A DNA stretch of 64,000 nt from Hygrocybe punicea (Eukaryota > Basidiomycota > Agaricomycetes > Agaricales > Hygrophoraceae), in the NCBI GenBank assembly GCA_963556145.1, contig OY744462.1, forward strand, positions 3,658,001-3,722,000, in the 5' to 3' direction. Below the pieces are notes generated by a model. The model had not been told where the DNA came from and did no database searches. It was given only the letters and a program-made list of their open reading frames with translations. The translations under genes were made by a program, and so were the position numbers. How positions within the stretch are numbered: the stretch's first letter is position 1; every line of letters begins with the position of its first letter. This document shows, piece by piece, positions 37,991 through 64,000 of this stretch.

Positions 37991-38036
37991 GGACGAGTAA
38001 CATGCCATGCAAAGCAATGGCCCACACCCCACTAGT
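37991..38036 (+). promoter_or_regulatory. 3' terminus of Hel-1 (hairpin end)
   Basis: GGACGAGTAA is followed by GCCATGCAAAGCAATGGC, a stem GCCA-TGC paired with GCA-TGGC with one unpaired A, then CCCACACCCCACTAGT. It aligns with the ends of Hel-2 and of copies B-F. Confidence 0.75.
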
Positions 38037-41000
38037 TAGGGGACCAATCTTGGGATGAAGCTTTTGACACTCATGAATTTACAAAAAGACAAATACAAAT
38101 AATAGACCATTTTAATTTGAGATATGAATGCAATGATGCCAGAGATGACTTTTCAGCACAACTCAAGAAGGGTGAAATGTTACCAGATGGCACATGCCCA
38201 CAGTTTATGACTAGAGACATGATCTCACATCTCGATGATGACTACAGTCAAAATGGTGAAGACATAGATTATGCAGCAGATGGTCAAGATGGTCAAGATG
38301 GAGAATATCATCTAAACAAATACACTGACCTTGGAAGTCATGGCAGATTGATCAAAGCACAAATGGAATCTACAGAAAATGTTGTTAGAAATGTGGGTTG
38401 GTTAGATGATTGTCCAGAAGGCAATGTAGCAGTGAACATAAATCCACTTGATGTGGAAGTGCATAAGTCAGCATCTCAATGGAAATCTGCAGTTCAAGAC
38501 ACAAGACAACAAATTCTTGTGAAACGTAACCAGAATATTCCTTCAAAGTCACATAAACATGGCAAACAATATTCAGACCCCAATGAAAATAATGTGATGG
38601 TTGTTGACCAATCATACTTTATGCACAATTTCAAGGCAGAGAATGCACACAGACAGGTGTTGATTGACACTACTGTTCAAACATTTCACTTGAATACAGA
38701 ACAAGATAGGGCATTTAGAATTATTGCAAACCATGCTTCATCATGTAGTGAACAACTAAAAATGCATATTGGAGGCATGGCTGGTACTGGAAAATCACAA
38801 GTGATCAAAGCTGTTGTTGATTTTTTTAAAGCTGCAAATGAGTCTTACAAATTTGTTATCCTTGGTCCAACTGGAACATCAGCTGCATTACAGAATGGTT
38901 CCACATACCATTACTTCTTAGGCATTAATCCAAACTCGTCTGGCAAAAATGAAGCCACCAACATTGCTCAGCTCAAGGCCAGATTAGAAGGAGTTGACTA
39001 CATATTCATTGATGAGGTTTCAATGATATCTTGCCATGACTTGTATAAAATCAGTGCTAAACTTGCTAAAGCAACAAACATTCATGACCTGCCATTTGGT
39101 GGGATAAACATGATATTTGCTGGAGACTTTGCACAATTGCCACCTGTTGGAGGATCAGCATTATATAGTGGAACAGTTGGCACACAAGCACACTCTGGAT
39201 TAACACCATATGCTCAGGAAACCGCTGTTGGCAACGCTTTGGCATCAGGTAACCACAGTTGTTATTCTCAGAGAAAACATGAGACAAAAGACTCAAACTC
39301 CCCAAGATGCAAAGTTCAGAACTGCATTGGTCAATATGCGATATGGAAAGTGTACTCCAAATGACATTATATTTTTGAGAAGCCGGATTGCAGGAAAAAG
39401 ACCTGATCAACCTAATGTTGCCTCTAAGAATTTCAGAAATGTCCCAATCATCTGCGGCATTCACTCTCAAAAGGATCAGATCAATTTGCTTGGCTGTGAA
39501 AGATTTGCAACAGACACAAACCAGAAATTAATCAACTTTTATTCTATTGATAGATGGGGAAAGGAAAAGGATGCATCTATAAGAAATAAATCAAAAGGCA
39601 AATCAAAAGCACTTCATGAATCTGGTGAGATAGACTTTGATACTCAAAGAGAAATATGGAAGGTGCACCATGGTGGAACAGAAAACTTTGCTGGTAAATT
39701 ATCCTTGTGTGTTGGAATGCCAGTCATGCTTAGAAACAATGATGCAACTGAACTTTGCATCACCAAGGGACAAGAAGGATTTGTTGTTGGTTGGCAGTCA
39801 TCAAAAGCTGATCATGGAAAGCGTGTACTGGACACAGTATTTGTTGAGCTTCTGAATCCACCAAAGCTTGTGCAGATTCCTTCTCTGCCAGACAATGTTG
39901 TTCCGATTGTGAAAAACACCAAGACAGTTCAGTGTGTATTTCCAAGTGATTTAAAAGAAAGGATAGAAAGACAACAGGTTTGGGTTTTGCCAAACTTTGC
40001 AATGACTGCACATGCCGCTCAAGGCAAGACAAGACCATACAATGTTGTGCATCTAAACAGCTGCTTTTCACACATGGCATATTATTCATCATTGTCTAGA
40101 AGCGCTACTGCAGCTGGCACTGTAATAATACAAGGATTTGACAATAGAATGATCACAAGAGGATGCTCTGGATATCTTAGACAAGAGTTTAGGGAACAAG
40201 AACTGCTTGATGACATCACTAGAATGAGATATAAAGGCACATTGCCAGAACATATTGTACAAGATGTCCGGTCATCAATGATTCAAAAGTTTCAACAATG
40301 GAAAGGCACTGGATATGTTCCATCTAAAACTGATGCAGCTTTGAAGTGGTCAGAAAGTGATCCCCTGGTGATTGCTCCTGTGGAAGTCAGTCCATGGCAC
40401 ATCATGAGAAGAACAAAAATAAGCAAGCAACTATGTCAATTTCTACTCCTTTTATCCCTGCCAAAGGATCTGTTCCACTTTTGTCCAGGAAGCATTTGAT
40501 TGAACCTTGTGAACTGCCAGCAGCTAAGAGACAACGAACAGATATGTCAGCTTCCCCAGCAGGTTTGCCATGGGATGAAAACAATTACAGTTGTGCATAT
40601 GATTCTATCCTGGTTATATTGTTTGATCTCTGGAAGGAAAACCATATAGCATGGTCTGAAGTATTTCATGATATGAATGATTATCTGGCTACTTTATCTG
40701 ATGGCTTCTCAGATATATTGAAAGGCAATATGACATTTGTGCAACTCAGAAATGAATTAAGGGCTACTTTGCATGATAAGCATCCTGAGACATATCTAAT
40801 GGGACCTGTTGGAATTAGTGTTACAACTCTAGCCATGGAGTTTTTACACGTAGACACTGCAGTCACATCTTCTCAGCATCAATGTACAAGGTGTAAATTT
40901 GCTGAAAAACCAGTGGATAATCAACTTGGTTATGTTTTACATGGAGAAACTTCAGTTCAAGGGTCTACTATGAATTGGATTGAAACATTGTCCCAACAAA

Positions 41001-41347
41001 CACCTAGAAGGTGTTCTAAGTGTCAATCTGCTATGCAACAAATCTTATTCTACAATAAAGTGCCACCTGTGCTTGTTTTGGAATATCCACTCATGGACAT
41101 TGAGACCAGTCATACACTTGAGTTTGAAACTGACAAAGGCATCAAGTTATTGAGGTTGAAAGGAATTGTTTATCATGGCCAATATCATTTCACCAGTAGA
41201 ATCATAAGTGTAGACAGGAAGGTTTGGTTTCATGATGGTATGACTACTGGAAATACTTGTTCATATGACGGTATGCTTGATAAATTATCAGATGCTGATG
41301 TTAGACAATGCAGAGACAAGAATCTTGTGCTGGCAATATATGCTTAA
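38037..41347 (+). pseudogene. Hel-2: 5'-truncated Helitron helicase/protease gene with frameshifts
   Basis: Starts in mid-gene at GDQSWDEAFDTHEF because Hel-1 is inserted there. It then parallels the Hel-1 helicase: GGMAGTGKSQVIKA (38774), IFIDEVSMIS, FAGDFAQLPP, RENMRQ, AHAAQGKTRP and SLSRSATAAG. Two lesions break it: loss of about two bases near 39237 (frame change in GKALWHQV) and loss of one A near 40410 (frame change in MRKNKNKQ). The C-terminal protease-like domain is the best preserved in the window: DENNYSCAYDSILVIL, a CxxC pair (CTRCKF and CSKCQS), KGIVYHGQYHFTSR, WFHDGMTTGNTC. No Rep part of Hel-2 is found in the window. Confidence 0.85.
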
Positions 41348-41546
41348 AGTGTTTCATGTGTGGGTGGGTGGGTGGCCAAATTTAATTTGCATGAGATATA
41401 TAAAATAAAAAGTGGTTGGGCTCAGCAAGTCTACATCAACAACTTTTGCACTATAATAATGGGTGGGTGTGGCGGGCTTAGTCTTGCTCAATATGATTTA
41501 TGAGGTAGCAGTGAATCAATTCAGAGCAAAGATTGGAACTTTAGGA

Positions 41547-50082: not shown

Positions 50083-51246
50083 TCAGTCCGCATTGGGGGC
50101 GATGTCAGCCTCATCCTCATCATCAGTAAACGCTACACCTCTTTTCCTGATTTTTGAAGACACTTTGACCTGAAGACGTTGTGTTTTCAAGAGTGTCTTT
50201 GAAGCGTCCTTCATAAAACAAGTCATGACAAGAAACCGTAACAAGTGCACACCTCTGCAAATTTGTCATCGATGAGAGCCATTGACTGAAGCACCAAAGC
50301 AAGCTTGAAATTTTTATCTTCCTTGGGACAAAATGCACGGAATGAGAGTCGAAGATCCACTACCACGCCGGGAACGAAGCGAGTTGGTGTTGTATGTTCA
50401 TACCTACATGTTTCTGTGAGTTTGGCATCGCAGAGAAAGTTGTGTACTCACTTGAATTTTTGGTCAGTGGTCACAAGCCTAGAAAAATATCCGACGTCAT
50501 CGGCAGTGGTGTGAAAATATTGACTTTGATCCACAGACGCCAAAACACCATGGGGATCAACAAGAGGAGGAAAAGGAGCAATGTCAGAGTGATTCGCAAA
50601 TTTTGCGCTTGTAAAGTATCTTTTGTACGCTTCAATCATTGTATATCCTGAAAATGTACCAGGGGTCCAAGGCTGGAGTTTGAAGGGACTAATACCCTTT
50701 GCAAAAATGGAGTGGATGGTCTGGATATTCTCCATAGCCATGTCAAATCGAGAGGAATTCAGCCCTGTCAAAGTGACATGTTGTCACAGAAATTTGACCC
50801 TGGCTTCAGAACTATGGACCACTTGCAAGTCAGGTGTCCAGGATTTCGATATTGACAACTAGCACTCACTTTGGAAGTCGGTTGACTGGGGGTAAGTCAC
50901 ATTCGGCGATGACTCCTGTAAGACGAAGTATAATTTCCTCCATCTCCTTTCCATCTATTTCCTGTACAAGTTCGTATTGTGCCATGGCTCGATTATACTG
51001 GGTCTTGGCTTTCAAGTGTAGGCCATTCTCCTAGTATGTTGTTCAAAACCTCATAGGCCATATGGGACAGAAGACATGCCTTGTTAAACGAACTCAAATA
51101 CCTCCGATGGTGCTTTTCTTCACATGCTGAGGTTGACAAAGACTCCACGGATTCAGCTGTCATTGAAGAATTTACAAGTCAACCAACGTAGCTGAGAACA
51201 AAGACTCTCTCTCACCAGCTGCTTTGTAGTCGTAGAATTGATTCAT
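50083..51246 (-). CDS. Multi-exon host gene of unknown function, 5' side disturbed by element F
   Basis: The 3' exons are clear: 50452-50765 (NSSRFDMAMENIQTIHS, DPHGVLASVDQSQYFH), 50253-50403 (YEHTTPTRFVPGVVVDLRLS, MALIDDKFAE) and 50083-50208 (DASKTLLKTQRL, acidic tail DDEDEADIAPNAD, stop). Introns are 44 and 48 nt. Upstream pieces at 51216-51246 (MNQFYDYKAA) and 50870-51156 (AMAQYELVQEIDGKEMEEII) look coding, but I could not join them in one frame. The GVLASVDQSQYFH type of sequence recurs in uncharacterised Agaricomycete proteins (recollection). Element F begins one base upstream of the ATG at 51246, so either the promoter/leader or an upstream exon has been separated. Confidence 0.5.
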
Positions 51247-51247
51247 G

Positions 51248-52391
51248 ACTTGTTTAGTGGGCCAGTGCTGCGCATGGCATGAACGAGTTCTTTTTTTCCC
51301 CTCCTCACTTTTATGATGAAGTAAATAATAATATTAAATTGCATAAAGCATGTTACATGTGATAGAAGACATATAGCATATATTATATATTAATAAGCCC
51401 ACCTCTCACCATAGCAACATAAAAAGTAGAAAAAATAAAACTGCATAGCGTGTCTTGACCTCCTCTCCCAATGTCATGTCTTCTTTGCTTCGTCATTATG
51501 CAATATTCTCAGCCAAAAGAGAGAGTAACACATCAACTGTCAAATACAACTACCTTTAAACAGTATGATAACAATTGACTTGCATTTGCTTAACCCACTT
51601 CTCCATAACCTTGCTGTATAACAGATGATAATATGAAGACAGCTGTGCTTGAGTGGGCCAATGATATAGCATGAACAAAGTTTTGTTTCTGTCATTAAAT
51701 TTTTATATGTATGATTATTACAAATATTGATAAGTGACTTTGCTGGAAATATATAATTAGCATATAATATATACAGCAATATCACATTGAATTGTATGTT
51801 TTAAGTAAAAATATCATTAGATCATCTGAGTTACACTTATTTCTGCTTATATGGCTGAAATTTCCCTATATAGTAACAGTGGTCACATGTGACTATGACT
51901 CCTGTGATCACCTCAAAATTTAGCATATATGGTGTAAAATTGCCTTATATGGTTAGACTGGTCACATGTGACTGTCACCATTGTGATCAGCAGAAAATTT
52001 GCTATATAATATCAAAAATTGCCTTATATGGTTAGATTGGTCACATGTCACTGTCACACCTGATCCGAAATGATAATATTAGTCAGCAGTTCAATTTTCA
52101 GCTGATTCTAATAAGAATTGAGACCAGTACAAATATTTTGAATATAATTAGAAGGTAATTTGTCTTTTTTGCACCAACCCATATTTGGATGCTTATGTAA
52201 GCTTGTCCACACATGGCCCCAACTGCATCTTATTTTCCAGGATCAGAAGTAGAATCATATCTGTTACCCAAAAAAATTCTGTCTATATATAGGTGATCAA
52301 CTTTATTAATTAATCAATCAATTAATTACGAACCCTCACTGAACCAGGTCTGATAAAGAACGAGTCTTTTAATAAATTAAAAGAACTCGTA
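51248..52391 (-). mobile_element. Short non-autonomous Helitron2-like element F (1,144 bp)
   Basis: Inverted copy of element E: 3' terminus ACTTGTTTAG... at 51248, 5' hairpin end at 52391. It differs from E mainly by 12 bp in an (AATT)n run and a few substitutions. Flanks join as ctcagt|catgaat. Confidence 0.9.
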
Positions 52392-53152
52392 ACTGAGTAC
52401 AGGCGGAAACACCGAGGACTACTTCAATACGGTAAACTACACTCGGTGCTTGTGTATTTCTAATAGAAATTCGTGGAATTTTAAACTATATTTAGATATG
52501 CCGAGCTGTTCCATGGCCTCATGTAATGCAAGACCAAGGGGTGTTTTTCAGGGGTACTTTCCAAAACGACATGGTGCTTTTCGAAAAGACATGTTGTAGT
52601 GCCTATTGGTGGAACTTTGTAATCAGTAACCTGGCAATGACATTGCATAAATAAAAATCAGTCGGTATTATATTCGACCATCTATCTTGAATCTGAAGTA
52701 TTGGATCCTGTCGTAAGGCACAACACCCATTTGTGCCTGCGGTGAATTTTTTTGGATCAACAAACCACCAGCTGTTGAACAAGTATTTTCTAGAAGTACA
52801 AATTATTTTCTGCATTTGGTATTTTCAAAGAATTAGAGGGCTATAGAGAGGCACCACAAGGCACCATGGGGCACGGAGAGGTTATCATGGAATATATCAG
52901 AAGGTTGTTGAAGAAGTATATATCTTTATAAGTACAGATTATTTTCTGTATCTGGTATTTTGAAAGACATCGGAGAGCTATAGAGAGACACCACAAGGCA
53001 CCCTGAGGCACCAAGCGGAAGGGGTGGAGAATTCATTTTTAAAATATATCAGAAGGCCATGTTCCTGTTTCGCCATTAAAATTTAATATTGAAGTCCTGT
53101 TTCGAAGGAAAGACTCTATCTCTCACTGTTCTCTCACTGTTCTCTCATCCAC
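52392..53152. other. Intergenic region with an imperfect tandem duplication
   Basis: No gene recognised. 52772-52903 and 52904-53055 are diverged copies of each other, sharing ATTATTTTCTG, GGTATTTT, CTATAGAGAG, CACCACAAGGCACC and AATATATCAGAAGG. Pyrimidine-rich sequence precedes the ATG at 53153, as expected for a fungal promoter. Confidence 0.6.
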
Positions 53153-55167
53153 ATGCCACCAAAAAAGTATTCCAGTATTGAGTCCTCTCAGGCTGCACCG
53201 TAACAATTCTCTATGTTCTTCTGCATTAATTTATTTACTATCATGATGGGTTAGCAGGCAAAGCCGAAAACGTGCTCAGACAAGCAAGCCTCTGTATGTT
53301 TATAGTGATGTTGAGGAGATGTACGCATTTGTTACTGAAATGGTACTTGCTTCTGACCAATCTCCAGCAGCGATGGTGAAAACGAACAGGCCACTGAGTG
53401 AGTATGGCTTTCTACACTATTTTACTGAGTTCATTTATTTATCTTGTTAGAGATGAGGCAACACCTTCGCCAAAGCCCAGGTCAGGAAAAACAGGCAAAC
53501 GGTGTGTAAACATTTTCATTATTGAGCCTATTTGGATTGATCCGTTCAACGGAAGGACTTTGACTGCCAAGATTGCCCCTCGGTCCTCAAAGAAAGCCCG
53601 CGTTGCATCAACCCCAGAGTTATCTGAACCAGAAGTGAAAACGTCTGTAAGATTTCTTGTTCTGTTGATTGTCCTTTTTGATACTTTAACAGTCCGTCAA
53701 AGCATCAATCCAAGTATTCACCTGTCTTCAGCCTACCTTGTTTATTTCTGAATCGTTGATTTCACTATAGGTCTCCTCAAAAGGCATCCCCTCAAAAAGC
53801 ATCTCACCAAAAGGCGTCATCCAAACAGGTTTCCTATACCACAGTTGATTCTCCGAGTCCTGAAGAGGACATTTTTCGGTAGGACGCCAGCCCTTAGTTT
53901 TGACTGCACTAATTTAGCTATCATACCAGTTTACCCTCACACAAGAAACCTGAAGACGAAATGGTATATTTGGAGGACTTTCCTGAATCGTATGTGTCAA
54001 CATGTTTCATTACTTTATATACACTACATAATCCTCCAGTAGCAAAAATTTCATCAAGTCCGGTGATGGTCCAGTCAAATGTGAAGTTCTCGTCCGAGAA
54101 CTGATGGACTCCATGTTGGTGGACACATACAAGAACCTCCCACCTCTTCGGTGAGTATTTGTCTTTTTAATAATAATATAGTTTTGATTGATGGTTGTTC
54201 TCTGGTTAGAAAAGGGACTCTGGTCACCGCCAATCCTGGGATTGATCCCATAGAACCGTTTTTGCTTAGCAATGTTCCAAAAATCTTTCCCTCCGCAAAT
54301 ATGAGGTATGTCTCCTTTACTTCTAACATGAGTCGTCCTTCAAACTATAATTAGGCTTCTTGTCGAGGCCATCACCTTTACAAGGTCTGGGGTGTTCATG
54401 AATCCTTCCAGAGCATCCCCGAATCTTGTCAAGATCAACCCAGTATCAGAAAGTATACGATCTGTGGAATACGCAAGCCAGGCTGGTGCATATGGCTTCA
54501 ATCCATATATTGTTTTTACTTCTGTTTTGCTTGTGACCAGTTCTAATTTGACCTCGGAACCTGTTGGGATTTTCCGGCAAATTGGTGGACTGATGTGCAC
54601 TCAAGAGTGGGAGAGGTTTTGTGCCTTTTTCTGCATGATATTCAAGCTTCCTGAGCTGAGGGCTCAAATACTGGAGGGTTCCGTCATGATTAGCACTCGT
54701 GCTAAACAAAGAGATAAGGATGACGGTAAGTACTTCGTGTCATATATGCACTACAATTTTTTTAATCTGACATTTTTCAGCTGGATCTACAGGAAGTAAC
54801 ATTGCGAAAATGCTGGCTAGGAAGAAGTCCCTTGCCAATTTGTCTCCGGTGAAACCTGTCTCTTCCAATAGTACAGCGGTGAAAGGTGCACTGAACTTTG
54901 AAGACCAGGGTAAGTACAAGTCAATTTGTCCAAGTTTGCCATGATCTTAGGATTTCGCCAGTTCCCATATATGATGGCATGAATGGTGTGGTAGATGTTA
55001 CCAGGCTCCATCACCTTTCGTCTGACTTGAAGCTGTGGGAAGATGACTTGGTGGGGAAGATGTGTCTAGTTGGCTATACGGCGAACAGCTGGATCCCCAA
55101 GGACAACTTGACCAAGCAGCTCTCTCTAAACATTCAGTGGGTCATTGTTTTAGCCAAGGAGGATTAG
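53153..55167 (+). CDS. Multi-exon host gene of unknown function
   Basis: ATG 53153 (MPPKKYSSIESSQAA), then exon 2 from 53255 (SRKRAQTSKPLYVYSD...) and further short exons rich in S, P and K (SPQKASPQKASHQKAS). A conserved-looking C-terminal half follows: GDGPVKCEVLVRELMDSM, KGTLVTANPGIDPIEPFL, LLVEAITFTRSGVFMNPS, IGGLMCTQEWERFCAFF, then 54781-54909 and 54962-55167 ending SLNIQWVIVLAKED. Introns are 48-60 nt. The last three splice junctions are unambiguous; some early ones are not. The basic, low-complexity N-terminus suggests a nuclear protein (inference). I do not recognise the family. Confidence 0.65.
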
Positions 55168-55433
55168 GACTAGGGCTTAGCAAATTGTCAGCTTGGACAT
55201 AATTTTTTACATGTATTTATTATTCAGAATCCGTCGGGTTGTTTGAAAACCCAATATACCGCTATATCTGCTCTCGAAGAAACGTTTAGCTTTCTTTCAT
55301 GAGAGCATTTTTGACATTGAATTCGTCACGGTTTCCCTTTGGTGAAAAAGTTTTTCCTTTGGTGAAAAAGTTTTTCCACTCCTGTAATTCAATTCAACAT
55401 AACACTTTCTTATAAAATGAACAGCCTGTTATT

Positions 55434-56879
55434 CTACTGCCCCAGAAGTTCCTTGAGATTACTAAAAAGTCCAAGTCCCATTTGCCATCTAGCAGGGCCT
55501 TCTTCTTCCAATTCTTTTCTAGCCCACTTTTTTGAAGCCAGCAGCTCACCAATAGTCTGGAACCCATATTCCACCCATCTAAATAAGCCCCCTGCCATGT
55601 ACTGCATGAAGGACATTCTCGTTTCCCCCTTTTGAATGGAGGTGTTGGAGTGGCAGAGGACAGCGGAAGGAATGATGGCAGTAGTCCCAGCAGGGAACTC
55701 AATAACCATCTTCAAATCCCACAGGATGAGGTGGCCCCCAAGTTTCGGATCGAAGTCGCCTAGTGGGGTGATGGAACACATCCCGAAAGATAAATTCTTG
55801 AAGTCGATGTGATCGAAGCATACAGTTTGAGGTCCGAAGTTGAAGGTACTGGTCGACCAGATGCTGTTGTCAAACATCCGCACCAAGTTTGGATACTTTT
55901 CATACAATGCTCCCATTTTCTCTTTATAATAGGCATACAGCTTAGGCATCCAGACCGCAAATGCCCCCGATGCAAAACCCGCAAGTCGCCTAATCGCAGG
56001 GTGGTTGATGAGCATCAGGAGGGCTTCGTTATCCTTTGCACTATTGCAAAGGTTTCCAGGTGTCTATTTAATAAGGAATCAGGGGACGAATTAGCAATAC
56101 AAGAATGGAATCTGCCTTCTGCCCGCCCCCATACGATGCCCCATGGCTTAGCACATAGAATATGCCGCGTCGTTGGCTTTCTTCTGTCACTGAGAAACTA
56201 GCCAATGTCCTGGCATAGGCCATGGCTTCTGCAGCTTCCCTATGTAGGCTCTCGCTTAGCTTACCATCGGGTCGGCCTACCATGACTACGATCAGAAGGC
56301 CTTGGTGATTGTCAACAGGAAATGAGCTACTATTATAGTACAATGAGCTTTGATCACCAGTAATGGGGATGAGACATACACTCCATCCCAAGGGAGTAGG
56401 GTAAACTTGAATTCTGAGTCGGAACCCACCATTTCCTCCAACATGAAGGTCCTCCCATACCCCTCTGAGTTGACCGCAGTATATCCAATTTTTGAGACTG
56501 GTACAGCTTTGACGTTGAGGTCAAGATCGGCAGTAACTTTATTGACCTCGTTGATATGTTTCTTCATAGTGGAAGGACGGACCGTATAATTGCCAAAGGA
56601 ACGACTACTCCATTCTTGCTGTCATTTAATTTGGCGTGTTTGTTTACTTTGTTGTTTCCGATGTTCCTTTACAGATTTTGGAAGTGGTTTACAAGAAATA
56701 GGGGTGGTCATGGACGATGCAGGAGCCTGATGTTCATTGGAGCTGATATTCACATTGGAATCGTGGTCAGACGGTGCAAGGGCATGGGGTTGGTCCACCG
56801 GACATATGGATTGGAATGGATAGTCCTCTGTGTCATCCTCCTGGTTGCTGATTTCTGATTGTACTGCTTTGCCCGACAA
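55434..56879 (-). pseudogene. 2-oxoglutarate/Fe(II) oxygenase-like gene of the basidiomycete TET/JBP-related type, apparently damaged
   Basis: The C-terminal exon (ending at 55434) has a double-stranded beta-helix signature: FDHIDFKNLSFG (H69-x-D71 of the 56015-55434 frame), GDFDPKLGGHLILWDL, VIEFPAGTTAIIPSAVL, distal His in LCHSNTSI and Arg in GETRMSF, then QYMAGGLFRWVEYGF. HxD...H binds iron and Arg binds 2-oxoglutarate in this superfamily. Upstream exons give GYGRTFMLEEMVGS, FTLLPWDG, VVMVGRPDGKLSESLH and YVLSHGASYGGGQ. A 37-nt intron may precede TPGNLCNS. An in-frame TGA near 56618 and a frame change after PWDG suggest a pseudogene, though unusual introns are possible. I place it with the expanded Agaricomycete proteins related to TET/JBP (recollection). 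Confidence 0.6.
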
Positions 56880-57688
56880 TTGTTCAAAATTGAATGAATT
56901 ATCAGCGGAGATGGCCTGAGTCTGACAGATTAGATTCAGTAACTGGCTATCTAGACTCTCAAGCTGAGAGGTATATTGTTTACCATAGAATGGGTTTGCA
57001 TGGCTTTGGTATAGCGGTCTGACTTGAACAGCAAAAAACTTTTTTACAGGTCACGTGATGTGCCAACGTGTTATTTAATGAAACAAACAACTTCAACAAA
57101 TATTATATGAGCTCTACCCTAAAGGTGAAGGGTGGAAGGGGTTACAACTCCCGTGGCCCCAATGACCACCCTCCGTGATATCCTCAACCAATCTTCAATC
57201 ATTTTGAGAGGGTGGAGGTGAACCGTGCACAGACTGTGCGATCACAACCCCTACGGCCCAGATGGCCACCCTCTGTGACATCTGCAAAGCAAGCGCATTT
57301 AATAATGATTACTCAGACTTTCCCACAGTTCAAACGACCGAAATTAGCAAGAGTTTGGGGCATGGCATTTGATACAGAAATTAATGGTCGCTGTGATGGG
57401 TTATGGGCGGCAAGCGGCGTATGCTGTGGGGGGGTGCCAAAGTCGCCAGTTTAAAAAATATTTACATGGTGTAGAATAATTTGGTATACTTCGTCGTCCT
57501 TTTATTATAAATTGTCTTTTCATCAGTAATAATAGTATCATATCATTTGCAAATGCCTATAAATGGAATTAATTATTATATCTAAAAATATTTTACACTT
57601 GTGACTTTTCACGGGGAAGGAATGCCGGTACAATACATATAAACCTTTTACCACGTTAAGTTTGGACTTAGTGATATTTTGTTCAACA
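56880..57688. other. Intergenic, between divergent genes
   Basis: No convincing gene. The phrases CAACTCCCGTGGCCC...GACCACCCTCCGTG and CAACCCCTACGGCCC...GCCACCCTCTGTG form a diverged duplication around 57140-57290. This interval separates the oxygenase-like gene (minus) from the histone-tail-mimic gene (plus) and could act as a shared promoter. Confidence 0.5.
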
Positions 57689-59436
57689 ATGCCCTGCACG
57701 AAACAAACCGCAAAGAACTCCATTGGTGGTGTTGTTCCCCGAAAATCTGACAAAACTGAGAAAACTGCACTGGCTGTGAAGAAAATAGTGGCCACACCAG
57801 GGTTTGAACCGGGGACCTCCCCAATACATGAGGCTAGCTCTACCAACTGAGCTATGTGACCAGTTACAATGGGAGTTAGGATATCTAACATATACCCTAA
57901 GGCAGACCTTAGTTCACTTCTTAACCATCCGCTACTGTGTAGTGCTGTAGCTCCGGTGTTGATTAACCTGCCATTAGGTGGAACCATTGGATCTTAGCTC
58001 TGTTGAAAGTGACTACTACATCACCACTTCCAACACTGGCTTCCATCCCAGCAGTTCGTCTCGTTGTGTCCTCTGACTCTGTGACTCCGTTGCCCCCCAC
58101 TTTCTGATGGCAAGAACGACGTCTGTGCTTACCTTTTAAAATGTTTTTCACCTGTAACTGACCTTCTCACAGTTTTGCTACATCTGCCTGAACGGTGGAC
58201 TGCTCATGGTCTGTGAGTACTGTCCACGGTCAGTCTGCGAATCATGTGTGGACATCCATGCCAATCCGGCTGTGATACCTTCCATCTTCGTCTGCCCATC
58301 ATGCCATGAATCGAATTTTACAGGCCGTCATTGTGAGCCCTACCATGTGAGTAGATTACTTATTTAATCGTAACCAAGACAAATGAACGACTTAGGCCCT
58401 CTACGTCTTGAATGGTCCTGCGTACGTCAACAACTCCCTTGATCCCACCGCTCATATCCCTGCGATCGCATCGCCCGTCCAAATCACCAGCGGATTTCAA
58501 ATGCACGCCCACTCCCAGGTGTCCCATGACACCCTTTTGATCGTGCACTTTGTGCTCTCTGGGACATCTAACGCTGGTGCCCCTGCTGCTGTCCTCGCAT
58601 CCTACATGACAGGATTTCTTGCCAAGTCTGCTCTCCGGTTTGATGAGGTGGAATTTGATCTTGCCGATGATTCAACTGTGGAACTGCATGCAAAGCGGGT
58701 TGCCGAAATTTGCAGCCAATACCAGTACGTTTATTTGTACTGCATACTTTGCTCCATTTACTTATCATAATTAGACACTGCTCATCTCGGATTGTAATTT
58801 TCATAACCATGCATTCACATGATGAAACCGGGGATTTATTTATCGGTCAGAATTTGTGTACTTCTGTGACAGAGGTGAGCTTTCTTTGTCGTGGCATCCT
58901 TATTCTAATTGCCTGTATCAAATATCAGTTTTTTGACCTCCTGATCCCACGAAGGGTCGCAAACTTTCTTTGGGAGAGGGATGTGACCCTTTGGGTCATG
59001 TCGTGTGGTGCCCTGGTCAAGATGCCTCGAAGCTACCAGGACTTGGCTGGGTGAAGCAGTAAGTTTTTTGTCTTTTGTTTTTCTCAACTGAGCTGTACGC
59101 TTTGTCCTAAGTTTTAAATTCAACAATTTGGTTGCATTTATGGCAACTAAGTTTCAACCCATTCTCACCACAAACTTCACCCTCAGCATGGCACAAAGAA
59201 ACCTCATCGAACGATTTCCATTGGATCTTGCCATCCGGGACACCGTCCCCACCATTTTTTCAATTGGTCGCCACACAGACGTAGCGTACGTCCAATTTTC
59301 TAACGACATCGTCAAGGGCACTTGTTACACTTGGTGCCACCCCCAAATCCACCCATGGGGACAAGAGGTCCCCCCCCAATGCTCCGGTTGTGGCCGAATT
59401 CGAACATGGTGTTTTCTTGAAAACGGTCGGACATAG
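57689..59436 (+). CDS. Histone H3-tail mimic fused to a PHD/ADD-like zinc finger and a putative caspase-like domain (one in-frame TGA)
   Basis: Seven exons (57689-57775, 57978-58124, 58173-58346, 58396-58724, 58775-58874, 58929-59050, 59112-59436) join to 1,284 nt, exactly 428 codons. Residues 1-18, MPCTKQTAKNSIGGVVPR, copy the H3 tail around lysine 4 to lysine 18 (TKQTA, S.GG, PRK spacing kept). Exon 3 holds FCYICLNGG, MVCEYC, VCESC and VCPSCH, a Cys pattern like PHD/ADD fingers. Exon 4 contains DTLLIVHFVLSGTSNAGAP. Exon 5 has IVIFITMHSHDETGDLF and exon 6 LWVMSCGALV, a His and Cys placed after hydrophobic strands as in caspase/CHAT folds (inference). The last exon has SIGRHTDVAYVQ and a CSGCGRIRTW finger. 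A single TGA at 58074-58076 (possible former CGA) interrupts exon 2. Similar proteins exist in other Agaricomycetes (recollection). Confidence 0.65.
57789..57861 (-). tRNA. tRNA-like sequence, probably a tRNA pseudogene or tRNA-derived repeat
   Basis: 73 nt with an acceptor stem (GGTCACA with TGTGGCC, one G-U), a good D arm/A box (TAGCTCAGTTGGTAGAGC) and a B box (GGTTCAAACCC), followed by a TTTT run. The T stem has one mismatch. The anticodon arm pairs poorly; the best 7-nt loop (ATGTATT) would give anticodon GTA, but the spacing is off by one. It lies antisense within intron 1 (57776-57977) of the histone-tail-mimic gene, which is about 150 nt longer than the other introns of that gene. Confidence 0.5.
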
Positions 59437-60083
59437 TGGTAACCTGCAGTAGGTGTAAACATCAGTTGACTTTCAGTCAGTTAGGTGGTGAACTTCACTG
59501 GTTGGGTGGTGAGTTCTTCGGTGGAGGTGGTTAATTCGTGACTGCCCTTTGTAAAAAAAAATTTGCATCAAATATATGTCCCAGTCCCCTGTTTGCTCTT
59601 TGTAATGTATCCAAGCAAGTAAATCACCCAGTGACTCATGTAGGTCAACTTGTCAAGCTGCAGCTCAAAACAACTTGTTGAAGTTATTACTCAAAACATA
59701 CAATTAAGTACAATTAATAATTCATTATGTAATAAGGTTGAAAAACCTTTTTTCTCAACTCGAACTACATCCCTATGACGTTCAAAAGCTTTATCCTACT
59801 GCTACTTGTGTTGCTGACCATTCTATTACAATTGAATCACCCACAGGTCCTATTTATATCGGGATTCAACATATTTCCATTACTAATTTGATTTATGTCA
59901 GCGGTTGTCTGCCGAAGCTCACATCGATGGAAAAACCAGTAAAAATGTTTATGGGGTTAGCCAATTGCTTTGGGAGGGATTCAGTCAGTAAATCTAACTA
60001 CCTCTAGATCTACTGAATGTACTAAGTACTTCACCGTGTTTAGCAGATTGGTTTAATATTACTTGCCAGACACTTTTCCCCCT
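59437..60083. other. Intergenic or Helitron leader; no gene recognised
   Basis: AT-rich with an 89-codon frame at 59738-60007 of no recognisable type. If Hel-3 has a canonical 5' hairpin end it should be here, but I do not find T-ACGAGT. Confidence 0.45.
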
Positions 60084-60203
60084 GCCCAGACAGTTGGGCG
60101 TGTCGTTTTCACTGCCCAGACAGTTGGGCGTGTTGTTTTCGTTGCCCAGACAGTTGGGTGGGTCGTTTTCTCTGTTCAAACAGTTGAATGCATCATTATC
60201 CCT
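60084..60203 (+). repeat. Four tandem 30-bp units
   Basis: GCCCAGACAGTTGGGCGTGT repeats at exactly 30-bp spacing (60084, 60114, 60144, 60174), with the fourth unit more diverged. Confidence 0.9.
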
Positions 60204-60222
60204 GTCTGGTCAATGCAAAGCA

Positions 60223-63200
60223 ATGATAGGTTCTTTGTTATCTCAGTCAGGGTATTTTATGTCAACTATACTATTCTTGCAGTATACTATATTATGGTTT
60301 GGTATAGGGACCATAGCCTGGCATTTTGCTACTTGGATATTATTGCTGAGCAAAGCAGCAAAGCCATTTGACTTCCATGATATAGCCATATCAACTCGAA
60401 ATATTGATAACGACAATCATATATCTAGGACATATGTGGGTGGTGGCAAAAAACCTGTTTTTACCATATCAGAACTTGGATTAAAATCTTTTCCACTTCA
60501 TCAAGGGAAAACAGGATCTTATACATTTAAATCATACATATCTAAGCAAGATATGACTCTTCAGAATTTTTCTAATGATTTTCTTATAGTATTGGACATT
60601 TCACTAGCAATTTTAGTTGACAAATTAACCATTGCAAATCTTAAATTCATTGCTGCGTGTCATTCCATTTATTTGCCAGAAAAAATGAAACATGCAGAAA
60701 TTCAAACTGAAATTGTAAATCACAAGTGCATTGACTGTTCTTCTTATGTTTCAGTATTTGAGTTTACAGATGAGCTAGAGATACTGGCCAAAAAGAGTAC
60801 AGCTAACATTGAAGCTGTCAAACAATCACACAATAAAAACATTGGCAAATATTAACAGCAGAATCTTTTCGCTGTTCAAAAATACAATAAAAATAATGTT
60901 GTGAAGCATCAGCAACAAAATCTTGCAGCTGTTCAAAGACATAACTTGGAACATCCTGAGAAGCATCACCGAAAAAATATTGCAGCTGTTCAAAAATTCA
61001 ACTCGGAAAACCCAGAAAAACATCAGCAACAAAATAATGCAGCTGTTCAAAGATATAAATTGGAACATCCTGAGCAACATCAGCAACAAAATAATGCAGC
61101 TGTGAACAGATATAAATCAGAACATCCAGATAAATACCAGCAACAGAATCTTGCAGCAGTTCAAAAATATCGCTTGGAACATCCAGAGAGATCTCAACAA
61201 CAAAACCTCGCCACTGTTCAAAGATATTCATCTGAGGATTCAGAGAAATATATACTTTTTAATCAAAAAGCAGTTCAAATTTTTCGTCACAATAATCCTG
61301 ACAAATACAAACAGCAAAATCAAATTGCAGTACAGTCCTACAGAGACAAAGAAGAATTTCCTCCTTTACCTCCATCTCAATCCTTACAACACACTATTAT
61401 ATCAAACTTTTGTAGAGAAAGTAGTCCAAATGAATTTACAGAAGCAGGTTGTGCAGTTTGTGGACGATTAACAACTGTTCAAAATTTATCACAATTATCC
61501 TCACTTGATTTAGATTTAACTTTGTTGATACAACCTTCTGCTATACAACAGAAACATTTTTCAGTTGAAAATCCAGTGCAAGACATTGATAAACCAATTT
61601 TAATTGATAGTTTAGATAATATATGCAATTCATGTCAAAAGTCATTGAAGAATGGAAAACAACCTCTTCATGCACTTGCAAATGGTCTGTGGATTGGTGA
61701 TGTGTCAGCAGCTTTACAAAATCTATCATATGCTGAACAGTTGATGATTGCAAGGCAGACACAATAGATGCATTGTCAGAGTCTCTTCAGGCATGCACAA
61801 GATGAGAGCCAATGTAATTACATTTGCAAATCCAGTTCCAAAACTATATGATATTTTGCCACCTCCAGCTGATGAATTAGATGAAGTTCTGGCCTTTATT
61901 TACACTGGTCCATGCAAACCAACCAAGTCTGACTTTGAAAGAACACCTCTGCTTGTTAGGAGAAACAAATTAGCCAATGCTTTGAATTGGCTAAAGTTAA
62001 ACCACTGTGATTATTTGGACTTGGAAATAGCACAAGAGAATTTAAATCAATATCCTGAAAATGATATACCAGTGGTTGTTGATTACCGCCAGTCATTCAC
62101 CAACAAAAGTCCAGAATCAACTGCAGTCCATGATATGGAAACTGAAGAAGGAACAGAAACTGGCAAATGTCCATTTGTTGTTCATGGCTTGACTGGTGAG
62201 GAATATTCAACCAAGAGTGTCAAAGCATTAAAGGCTATCGCTTTGAAACGTTTGAAGAGCAACCGCATGGTGCTCGCTATTGGACATGACAAAGATCCAC
62301 AGTCAATCTATGGCAACCCACAGTTATTTCCACAAATGATGCCTTGGCTGTTTCCATATGGACTTGGTGGTATTGGAAATAATATAAAGCAAGGATCTCT
62401 GTCTGATATTGCACATAAAAGACATTTGTTGATGTATTATGACAAGCGCTTTCAGAGAGACCCACACTGTCCATTGATTGCATTTAATCATGAACAAATC
62501 AAACAGGCAACTACTGGAGGCTACTTGTTGGCTGAGAAAGCAAAATTTGATCAGATATCCCAGAGAATAATGGATCTTGATGTTGGTGTTCTTAATTACA
62601 TCTCCAGGAAGATGGAAGAGGGTGAACATGTCAAACCTGACACCGATGAGGAAAAGCTTTGTTTCCAGGTGATCAAAGACATTGACCATGTTGGAAGTCA
62701 TGTACAAGGATCATTGACAAATAAGAAATATATGAGAAATGAAATCTGGGCTCTGATGTCATTCTGTGGGGCCCCATCTTGGTTTATCACCTTTTCACCT
62801 GCAGATATCATGCATCCACTATGTTTATATTTTGCTGACACCAAAGAGGAGTTTTCCCCAAAATTGCGAGACTACAATGAGAGATACAGACTGATTGCCC
62901 AACATCCCGTGGCTGGTGCAAGATTCTTTCATTTTATGGTCAAGTTGTTTATCAAACATGTGCTCGGAGCTGGATCAAATCACTCTGGAATTTATGGGGA
63001 TACACATGCATATTATGGTGCTGTTGAACAGCAAGGACGATTAACTCTTCATATGCATATGATGTTATGGCTCAAAGCATGCTTGTCGCCACAAGAGATC
63101 AGAGATAGAATCATGGATCTCAACTCAGACTTCCAAAAAAGATTTGTTGAATATCTTGAAAGTGTTCATATTGGTGAATTTATGACTGGCACAATGGATG

Positions 63201-64000
63201 AAGTAACAGCCAAAGTCAATGCTCAATCCATGCAAAAAGGTTATAAAGATCCAACTCAAACCTTGCCTGAAACACCACCACCTCTGTGCAATGACAAACA
63301 TAAAGACATGGATGATCAATCTGAATGCATTGAATGCAAGAATGTTGAGTCATGGTGGGACCGATTCAGAAACACTGTGGATGATTTGATACTTCACTCC
63401 AATGTTCATAATTGTGGCAGATACAAGTCTAATGCTGAGAAAGTCAACAGAAAAGACAGACCCACCTGCATGAACAAACATGGAAAATGCAAAGCTAGAT
63501 TTCCAAGACCATTGTTTGAATCCACTCAAGTTGACCCAAAGACTGGTGCACTGAATGTGAAAAAGGGTGAAGCATGGATCAACACATTAACCCCACTTGT
63601 AACATTTTTATTACGCTGCAACTCTGATATCACAAGTCTTCTATCTGGCACAGCCATCAAGGCCATTGTGGCATATATATCTGGCTATATAACTAAACCA
63701 GGGCTAAAAATTTATAGCATATTTGATACTATTAGAAGTGTATTTGACAGAAATTCTGAGATGCTTGGTGGGTCAATGCAGAGAAAAGAAAAGGCTAGAA
63801 AATTAATAACACAAATTATCAATACATTAACAGCCAAACTGGAAATAGGTGGACCCATGTCAGCTCTATATTTGCTGGGCAATCCTGATCATTACACCAG
63901 CCACAAATTTATTCCTGTGTATTGGAAAAATTATGTTAGAGAAGTATTGAATGCCTGGAAAACAGATGGTGATATGGAAATGTCAAGTGAGCCAGACAGA
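60223..64000 (+). pseudogene. Hel-3: Helitron Rep gene, continuing beyond the window
   Basis: Start uncertain; homology begins near ISRTYVGGGKKPVF. A CxxC pair (CIDCSSYVSVFEF) is followed by nine 19-residue repeats, then SGCAVCGRL-like EAGCAVCGRL and CNSCQKSLKNG. TAA at 60853-60855 replaces a repeat-conserved CAA, and a frame change near 61757 separates YAEQLMIARQ from HNRCIVRVSSGMHKMRAN. From about 61757 to 64000 the frame is fully open and contains the HUH motif LHMHMMLW (about 63050) and the tyrosine motif AYISGYITK (about 63672). It ends at the window edge before the helicase. It is closer to Hel-4 and Hel-2 than to Hel-1. Two lesions make it inactive unless assembly errors are involved. 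Confidence 0.85.
60838..61330 (+). repeat. 57-bp coding tandem repeat (19-residue unit, about nine copies) in Hel-3
   Basis: Units of the form HQQQNLAAVQRHNLEHPEK, rich in Gln, Asn and His, periodic at 57 bp, degenerate at both ends. Not present in Hel-1; Hel-4 has only a faint counterpart. Confidence 0.85.

Follow-up and report, generated by a model that had tools for sequence, protein, structure and literature searches.

A histone H3-like N-terminus and a PHD-like finger in an accessory gene of a Helitron family in Hygrocybe punicea

The genome of Hygrocybe punicea contains at least 30 copies, forming four subfamilies, of a gene whose predicted product begins with a close likeness of the histone H3 N-terminus and continues into a zinc finger resembling the fingers that read this very tail. 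Our best explanation, which we regard as about evenly poised between right and wrong, is that the gene encodes an anti-silencing protein of a mobile element, whose H3-like tail engages readers of the H3K4me0 type, its own finger first. The copy through which the family was recognised lies in the window (the whole stretch of 64,000 nucleotides of DNA analysed here), where the following features were delimited:

55437..56063 (- strand): ORF whose predicted fold is that of TET/JBP-type 2OG-Fe(II) dioxygenases, lying head-to-head to the H3-mimic gene
57689..57775 (+ strand): exon 1, first part, encoding the H3-like N-terminus (residues 1-19, MPCTKQTAKNSIGGVVPRK) and the start of the linker
57776..58033 (no strand assigned): 258-bp repeat within exon 1, with a direct duplication of 7-8 bp at its edges
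57788-57861 (- strand): tRNA-Tyr gene inside the 258-bp repeat
58034..58120 (+ strand): exon 1, second part, encoding the linker up to KND, with the donor GT at 58121 and a frame shift in the window copy
58173..58346 (+ strand): exon 2, PHD/ADD-like C8 zinc finger (FCYICLNGGLLMVCEYCPRSVCESC...CPSC)
58396..58724 (+ strand): exon 3, encoding the beginning of the conserved core
58775..58874 (+ strand): exon 4, with the conserved His (FITMHSHDETGDL in the window copy; THS....G.L in relatives)
58929..59058 (+ strand): exon 5, with the conserved Cys (LWVMSCGALV), 4 bp short relative to intact relatives
59112..59554 (+ strand): exon 6, end of the core and C-terminal CxxC...CxxC ribbon
60856..64000 (+ strand): Helitron replicase ORFs (DUF6570, Helitron_like_N), running beyond the end of the window

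Gene family and window copy

The window copy is a pseudogene, with exon 1 split by the repeat, a frame shift in the linker and further frame shifts in exons 5 and 6, the last of which leaves the frame before the final Cys pair and reaches a stop at 59436, the homologous stop lying at 59552-59554. Over most of its length it shares 92-97% identity with its relatives (89-93% with L021). An earlier note, made from the window alone, had described a gene of seven exons and 427 residues and had taken its exact codon length as a sign of selection until recently. This model does not survive comparison with the relatives, which show six exons and about 450 codons, and the exact codon length is fortuitous because the linker is frame-shifted, 4 bp are missing from exon 5 and exon 6 stops early. 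What that model took for intron 1 is the 258-bp insert, which relatives lack, together with the remainder of exon 1. The 258-bp repeat itself recurs at 12 further sites in the genome (11 near full length and 97-99% identical, one partial and 93% identical) and, with its tRNA-Tyr gene, has the character of a young, small mobile repeat.

Exons 2-3, used as a genome query, gave 89 matches at exon level, the best 30 of which define the loci used here (L009-L038, the window copy included), grouped by sequence into subfamilies A (13 loci), B (2), C (10) and D (5). Exon boundaries were set by hand in L017, L027 and L031, where they occupy the same alignment columns except at the 3' end, and were then transferred to all loci. 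The gene comprises six exons, and all five introns are GT-AG at the transferred boundaries in 26 of the 30 loci (the exceptions being L016, L017, L034 and L035); judged from these splice sites, exon 1 would be spliced straight to the finger exon in the relatives. Most copies are damaged. An uninterrupted frame from start to stop is found in ten (L013, L016, L017, L018, L022, L025 and L027-L030), of which eight also have every splice site canonical; the intact products measure 446-451 residues, with 451 in L027. A full-length hybrid query of the protein database retrieved two metagenome proteins only, though proteomes of named mushrooms were included, and a search with the linker alone gave zero homologues; support from beyond this species thus consists of two metagenome fragments.

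The H3-like N-terminus

The likeness to the H3 N-terminus on which the earlier note had built its reading is confirmed. The window ATG at 57689 opens a peptide in which 11 of the 18 residues after Met are those of H3, which ranks it top of the 1317 open 19-mers that begin with ATG in the window, a total that includes it; the runners-up reach 6. Identity is higher in relatives, reaching 15/18 in subfamily B (L023), 14 in the metagenome protein P0002, 13 in A (L018) and 12 in C (L027), and for each of an A, a C, a D and a family F start (see below) none of 200,000 shuffles equalled the observed value. Across the genome (92.2 Mb, 42 contigs), a codon pattern for M-[P/A]-R-T-K-Q-T was found at 21 sites, namely in 4 true H3 genes and in 17 members of the present family, and the reversed pattern, used as a control, at none; the MGN codon of the pattern also admits Ser, and the window copy, with Cys there, falls outside the 21 sites. 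A looser codon pattern for TKQTA alone was unspecific, with 79 sites, the eight examined (L001-L008) not lying at H3-like protein starts. Chance resemblance is ruled out by the 19-mer ranking, the shuffles, the genome pattern with its control and the conservation described next.

Usable starts were available from 26 of the 30 loci; L009 and L035 have lost the start, L019 and L020 are frame-shifted nearby, and L026 was counted although a stop occupies its R2 position. In all 26, K4, T6, A7, G13 and P16 are invariant and the residue after Met is small (Pro in 21, Ala in 5), while 7 retain K9 and none retains K14. The tail is conserved across subfamilies despite heavy divergence at synonymous sites. 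Among L018, L022, L027 and L031, six pairwise comparisons gave tail dN/dS values of 0.13-0.35, each single value being rough because the tail has 18 codons only, and dN/dS was 0.07-0.39 in 43 of 48 segment comparisons of the same four loci (the unsaturated ones). The tail codons are under purifying selection. Because K4, T6 and A7 are invariant while K9 is found in 7/26 and K14 in 0/26, the preserved part is the stretch of residues 1-7 that PHD fingers read, a pattern that would suit binding by readers of an unmodified N-terminus more than mimicry of a K9 or K14 mark. Readers of the H3K4me0 type bind residues 1-7 together with a free, small N-terminal residue, and starts with MP and with MA both permit removal of the initiator Met.

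The weak matches of the exon 2-3 search that were examined proved to be further members of the same architecture, here termed families E to H. Family F is a single open locus (L080, G000:C1:2552000-2554800) of 492 residues, whose start, MARTRQNAKKSTGAPSIRK (also given as MARTRQNAKKSTG), agrees with H3 at 11 of 18 residues, and family H (L081, exons 1-2 only) has the H3-like start MPKIKQTSRKS. Families E (L078, L079) and G (L082, L083), both with many copies, start with MPIITATTASKK or MPITTATTASKK; the E start agrees with H3 at 2 of 18 residues and 133,619 of 200,000 shuffles did as well, so that it is no more H3-like than shuffled sequence, and G starts in the same way. No start of this kind was seen in L084. 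Homologues thus carry the H3-like start in A-D, F and H but not in E and G; the start therefore dates back far in the family and either disappeared from E and G or was never acquired by them, and the architecture can do without the tail. With their related architecture (the core being seen in E only), E and G represent a natural control for the role of the tail. A genome query with family F gave 86 exon matches, those of A-D included, and its one locus is a candidate for a domesticated or last-surviving copy.

The tail might instead be merely a basic, disordered peptide for nuclear localisation or for binding nucleosomes or DNA, captured from an H3 gene and since drifting. The tail is indeed basic, K9 and K14 are not kept, E and G do without it, and the best genome match of family F exon 1 outside its own locus is a true H3 gene, at an E-value of 0.19 only. 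However, the non-basic residues T6, A7, G13 and P16 are kept in 26/26 starts through all the synonymous divergence, and charge alone makes no demand for Pro or Ala at position 2, which together render this origin and role highly improbable.

The finger and the His/Cys core

The earlier note had also recognised the Cys spacing of PHD/ADD fingers, and this assignment is upheld. Eight cysteines (C58, C61, C70, C73, C78, C81, C97 and C100) are invariant in an alignment of four sequences and have the PHD spacing of eight zinc ligands, and the set is complete in 27 of the 30 loci (not in L009, L035 and L038). A profile built from 4 of the 30 loci, one per subfamily, and searched against PDB sequences gave PHD fingers as its top matches among the best 60 of 164 matched sequences, led by CHD4 (4.6e-7), ZMYND8 (3.2e-6) and PHF21A (4e-6) and continuing with TRIM66 (5.3e-5), TRIM33 (2.9e-4), AIRE (7.7e-4), TRIM24 (1e-3) and ATRX (3.4e-3). 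Histone H3 appeared lower in the same search, as a weak match (0.013) aligned at about the first 30 positions. The Pfam PHD family (PF00628) stayed below its curated cut-off in both members scanned (E 0.54 in L027 and 2 in L031). The H3K4me0 readers named in PMC3471955 include BHC80 (PHF21A), AIRE, CHD4 and TRIM24, and these fingers, with the PHD half of the ATRX ADD, are among the best PDB matches of the window family, from which they differ in that the family has Cys at the place of the usual PHD His and an H3-like tail of its own. The GATA-like finger that precedes the PHD half of an ADD is missing from the family, with zero Cys in residues 1-56 of L027. Cys at the canonical PHD His place is a trait of ADD domains.

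The residue immediately before the FC that opens the finger is D or E in all 29 loci having the end of exon 1 (L035 being without it), and it aligns with the D of HEDFC in PHF21A (BHC80), a residue that contacts K4 of H3 there; at this place family F has T, and family E has I before WC. The finger is most like the PHD class that reads H3K4me0, and binding to such tails is predicted from this resemblance.

Downstream of the finger, a conserved His and a conserved Cys had been read in the earlier note as the catalytic dyad of a caspase/CHAT-like peptidase. The residues themselves are present: each is kept in 30/30 loci, the whole string [TM]HSHDxxGDL around the His in 28 of 30, and T-H-S-x4-G-x-L together with a Cys beside a hydrophobic stretch is invariant across one sequence each of A-F. 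In L027 they are His237 and Cys283, 46 residues apart, each with a hydrophobic stretch beside it. The proposed family identity, by contrast, found no support, with no CHAT or peptidase C14 match to the core in Pfam or PDB sequence searches. Alignment of profiles by hhalign against 12 CHAT and 2 caspase sequences of the same genome (drawn from 26 CHAT and 13 peptidase C14 matches, with a reversed profile as control) reached a probability of at most 1.3, in a weak test with shallow alignments. A single-sequence model of window positions 58776-59051, which span exon 4, the intron and exon 5 unspliced, had a pLDDT of 48.6 and was unusable; in it a strand ends just before the His, and the Cys sits inside a strand rather than following one. 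The conserved pair agrees with the proposed dyad without proving it, and any enzyme activity of the core would be putative. These data bear on the earlier note's view that the protein is a self-inhibited caspase/CHAT-like protease, freed when real H3 tails displace the pseudo-ligand. The universal conservation of both residues, extending to the E and F sequences, and their spacing speak for such a protease, but the absence of any CHAT or C14 match in the searches named, the hhalign result and the position of the Cys in the poor model make it unlikely.

Helitron setting and possible counter-silencing

Two hallmarks of Helitrons, a Rep domain (Helitron_like_N) and a PIF1-type helicase, were found with the window element (8.6e-33 and 8.2e-22), the helicase lying past the end of the window in the adjoining sequence L041. 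Helitron ORFs follow the gene in all four copies read that far, as established by Pfam in the window and by collinear DNA and ORFs in the copies C34, C36 and C8. The replicase of the window element is split by about 1.07 kb near the start of L041 (window-equivalent about 64045-65118) that C36 and C8 do not have, and that of C34 is cut short by another repeat. In this setting, the H3-mimic gene appears to be a Helitron accessory gene, carried by a family of such elements in the fungus.

The TET-fold ORF is a frequent companion of the gene. It lies upstream, head-to-head and at most 6 kb away in 17 of the 30 copies, in all four subfamilies, and within 13.2 kb in 4 more, and none was near in 9; these counts are lower bounds, and the upstream region of C34 starts only inside the TET ORF. 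A TET-like ORF also adjoins the family F gene (C1:2551293-2551820, 49% identity). The window ORF has 1155 homologues, among which the matches listed include named relatives from Athelia, Laccaria, Mycena, Armillaria and other mushrooms and their kin. Its putative metal- and 2OG-binding residues (HxD...H...R) are nearly invariant (H85, D87) or invariant (H138, R149) over 47 sequences, and its structural model (pLDDT 90.6) has as best PDB matches CcTet (1.8e-6) and NgTET1 (8.3e-5). The Pfam family PF12851 gave no match in the window ORF or in its relatives P0012 and P0039, and matches below the cut-off in three further relatives, P0010 (4.4e-6), P0007 (0.0018) and P0023 (0.037). The upstream ORF is accordingly predicted, from its model, to be a divergent member of the TET/JBP fold.

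Comparison of the window element (A-type, 53785-64000) with the C8 element (C-type; L043, L027 and L044) showed the later part of the replicase to be 88-96% identical, with lower values of 78% for the TET region, 71% for the H3-mimic gene and 66% for the stretch from the gene to the Rep domain. Divergence is greater in the accessory part than in the engine, a pattern that would be expected where genes are in an arms race or pass between elements. Taken as an observation in its own right, the A- and C-type elements thus appear to be mosaics or to carry a fast-evolving accessory module.

Several other features of the region were recorded. A second piece of a Helitron occupies positions 38036-41365 of the window; it matches the helicase end of C36 at 97.6% identity, and its ORF at 40361-41347 has zero Pfam matches. 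About 2.6 kb of the window (51146-53784) are missing from the otherwise collinear C36 copy, and an ORF at 54332-54799 is shared with the C36 and C8 elements and has nothing convincing in Pfam. A repeat of about 550 bp, found in the window at 1882, 5694, 12487, 27744 and 30306, is about 85% identical to one at the break in the C34 replicase. Short tandem units (TTGCCCAGACAGTTGGGC...) mark the start of the replicase region at about 60090-60180 and are expanded, in frame, in C36.

Fungal DNA transposons that carry TET genes, Helitrons included, are thought to escape methylation-based silencing (Kojima 2025, PMC12730594). These elements resemble the window element in encoding TET/JBP dioxygenases for which a counter-silencing role is proposed, and they include a 'PE type' from Agaricomycetes, distantly related, of which the window ORF may be a member; an H3-like or PHD partner gene, as in the window element, is not described in the passages considered, and the words PHD, plant homeodomain and accessory are absent from the main text of that paper. 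Helitrons of Pleurotus ostreatus likewise contain extra genes of unknown origin, the captured genes capA-F (PMC4289320, whose main text is without the words 'histone', 'PHD' and 'TET'). For the tail and finger, a close parallel is BAZ2B, in which a histone-like stretch competes with H3 for the PHD finger of the same protein and weakens its hold on H3 (PMC5663869). The stretch in BAZ2B is an internal, lysine-rich linker of loose histone resemblance, whereas the window family has an N-terminal copy of H3, with up to 15 of 18 residues identical, in a transposon.

Together, the TET-bearing transposons and the BAZ2B precedent lead us to favour engagement of the tail by the protein's own finger. After removal of Met, the protein of about 450 residues would begin P/A-R-T-K-(Q/A)-T-A..., the part of the H3 tail gripped by H3K4me0 readers, followed in order by a proline-rich linker, the PHD/ADD-like finger, the His/Cys core and a zinc ribbon. 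The tail would then act as a pseudo-ligand for readers of this type, its own finger first and host readers second, the contact with the finger being made in cis or between molecules, in which case self-assembly would also be permitted. The site of action would be chromatin without H3K4 methylation, where silenced copies lie and would offer the finger a competing ligand, and the H3-mimic protein and the co-encoded TET/JBP-fold dioxygenase would together oppose silencing of the element. Since a multi-copy Helitron gene often stands beside a TET/JBP-fold gene, counter-silencing is likelier than release of a host protease; binding, exchange and anti-silencing are what we infer from the sequences.

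A more specific form of this mechanism, which we put forward tentatively, is a switch in which the ligand and the receptor of the H3K4me0 code are united in one protein, held as a lock in cis or as chains joined tail to finger, until real unmethylated H3 tails on silenced copies swap with the mimic, deliver the His/Cys effector and, with the TET protein, reopen the element. The main rival to engagement of the own finger is a decoy acting in trans, in which the tail would occupy host H3K4me0 readers or enzymes of the H3 tail, for example ADD/PHD-bearing factors of DNA methylation or factors of the LSD1 type, and the finger would do no more than place the protein on chromatin. The preserved residues 1-7 with a free small N-terminal residue are just what such host readers bind, the TET-fold gene that often adjoins fits the decoy too, and the fingers of E and G, which have no H3-like tail, show tail and finger to be separable. 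Yet a decoy leaves the matching reader within the mimic protein unexplained, and there may be too few copies for an abundant factor to be titrated, so that we consider it possible but somewhat doubtful.

Most known histone mimics come from viruses and host regulators, the former including influenza NS1, in which the end of a parasite protein copies the H3 N-terminus. The window family differs from NS1 in belonging to a transposon, in having its mimic at the N-terminus and in the fusion of this mimic to a finger whose class reads that tail. No transposon-encoded H3 tail mimic was found in the open literature, covered through titles and the openings of abstracts, with subscription papers mostly outside. 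If our explanation is true, the family would represent selfish DNA that attacks silencing on two arms, DNA methylation and H3K4, and transposon counter-defence in mushrooms would become testable with peptides and small recombinant domains.
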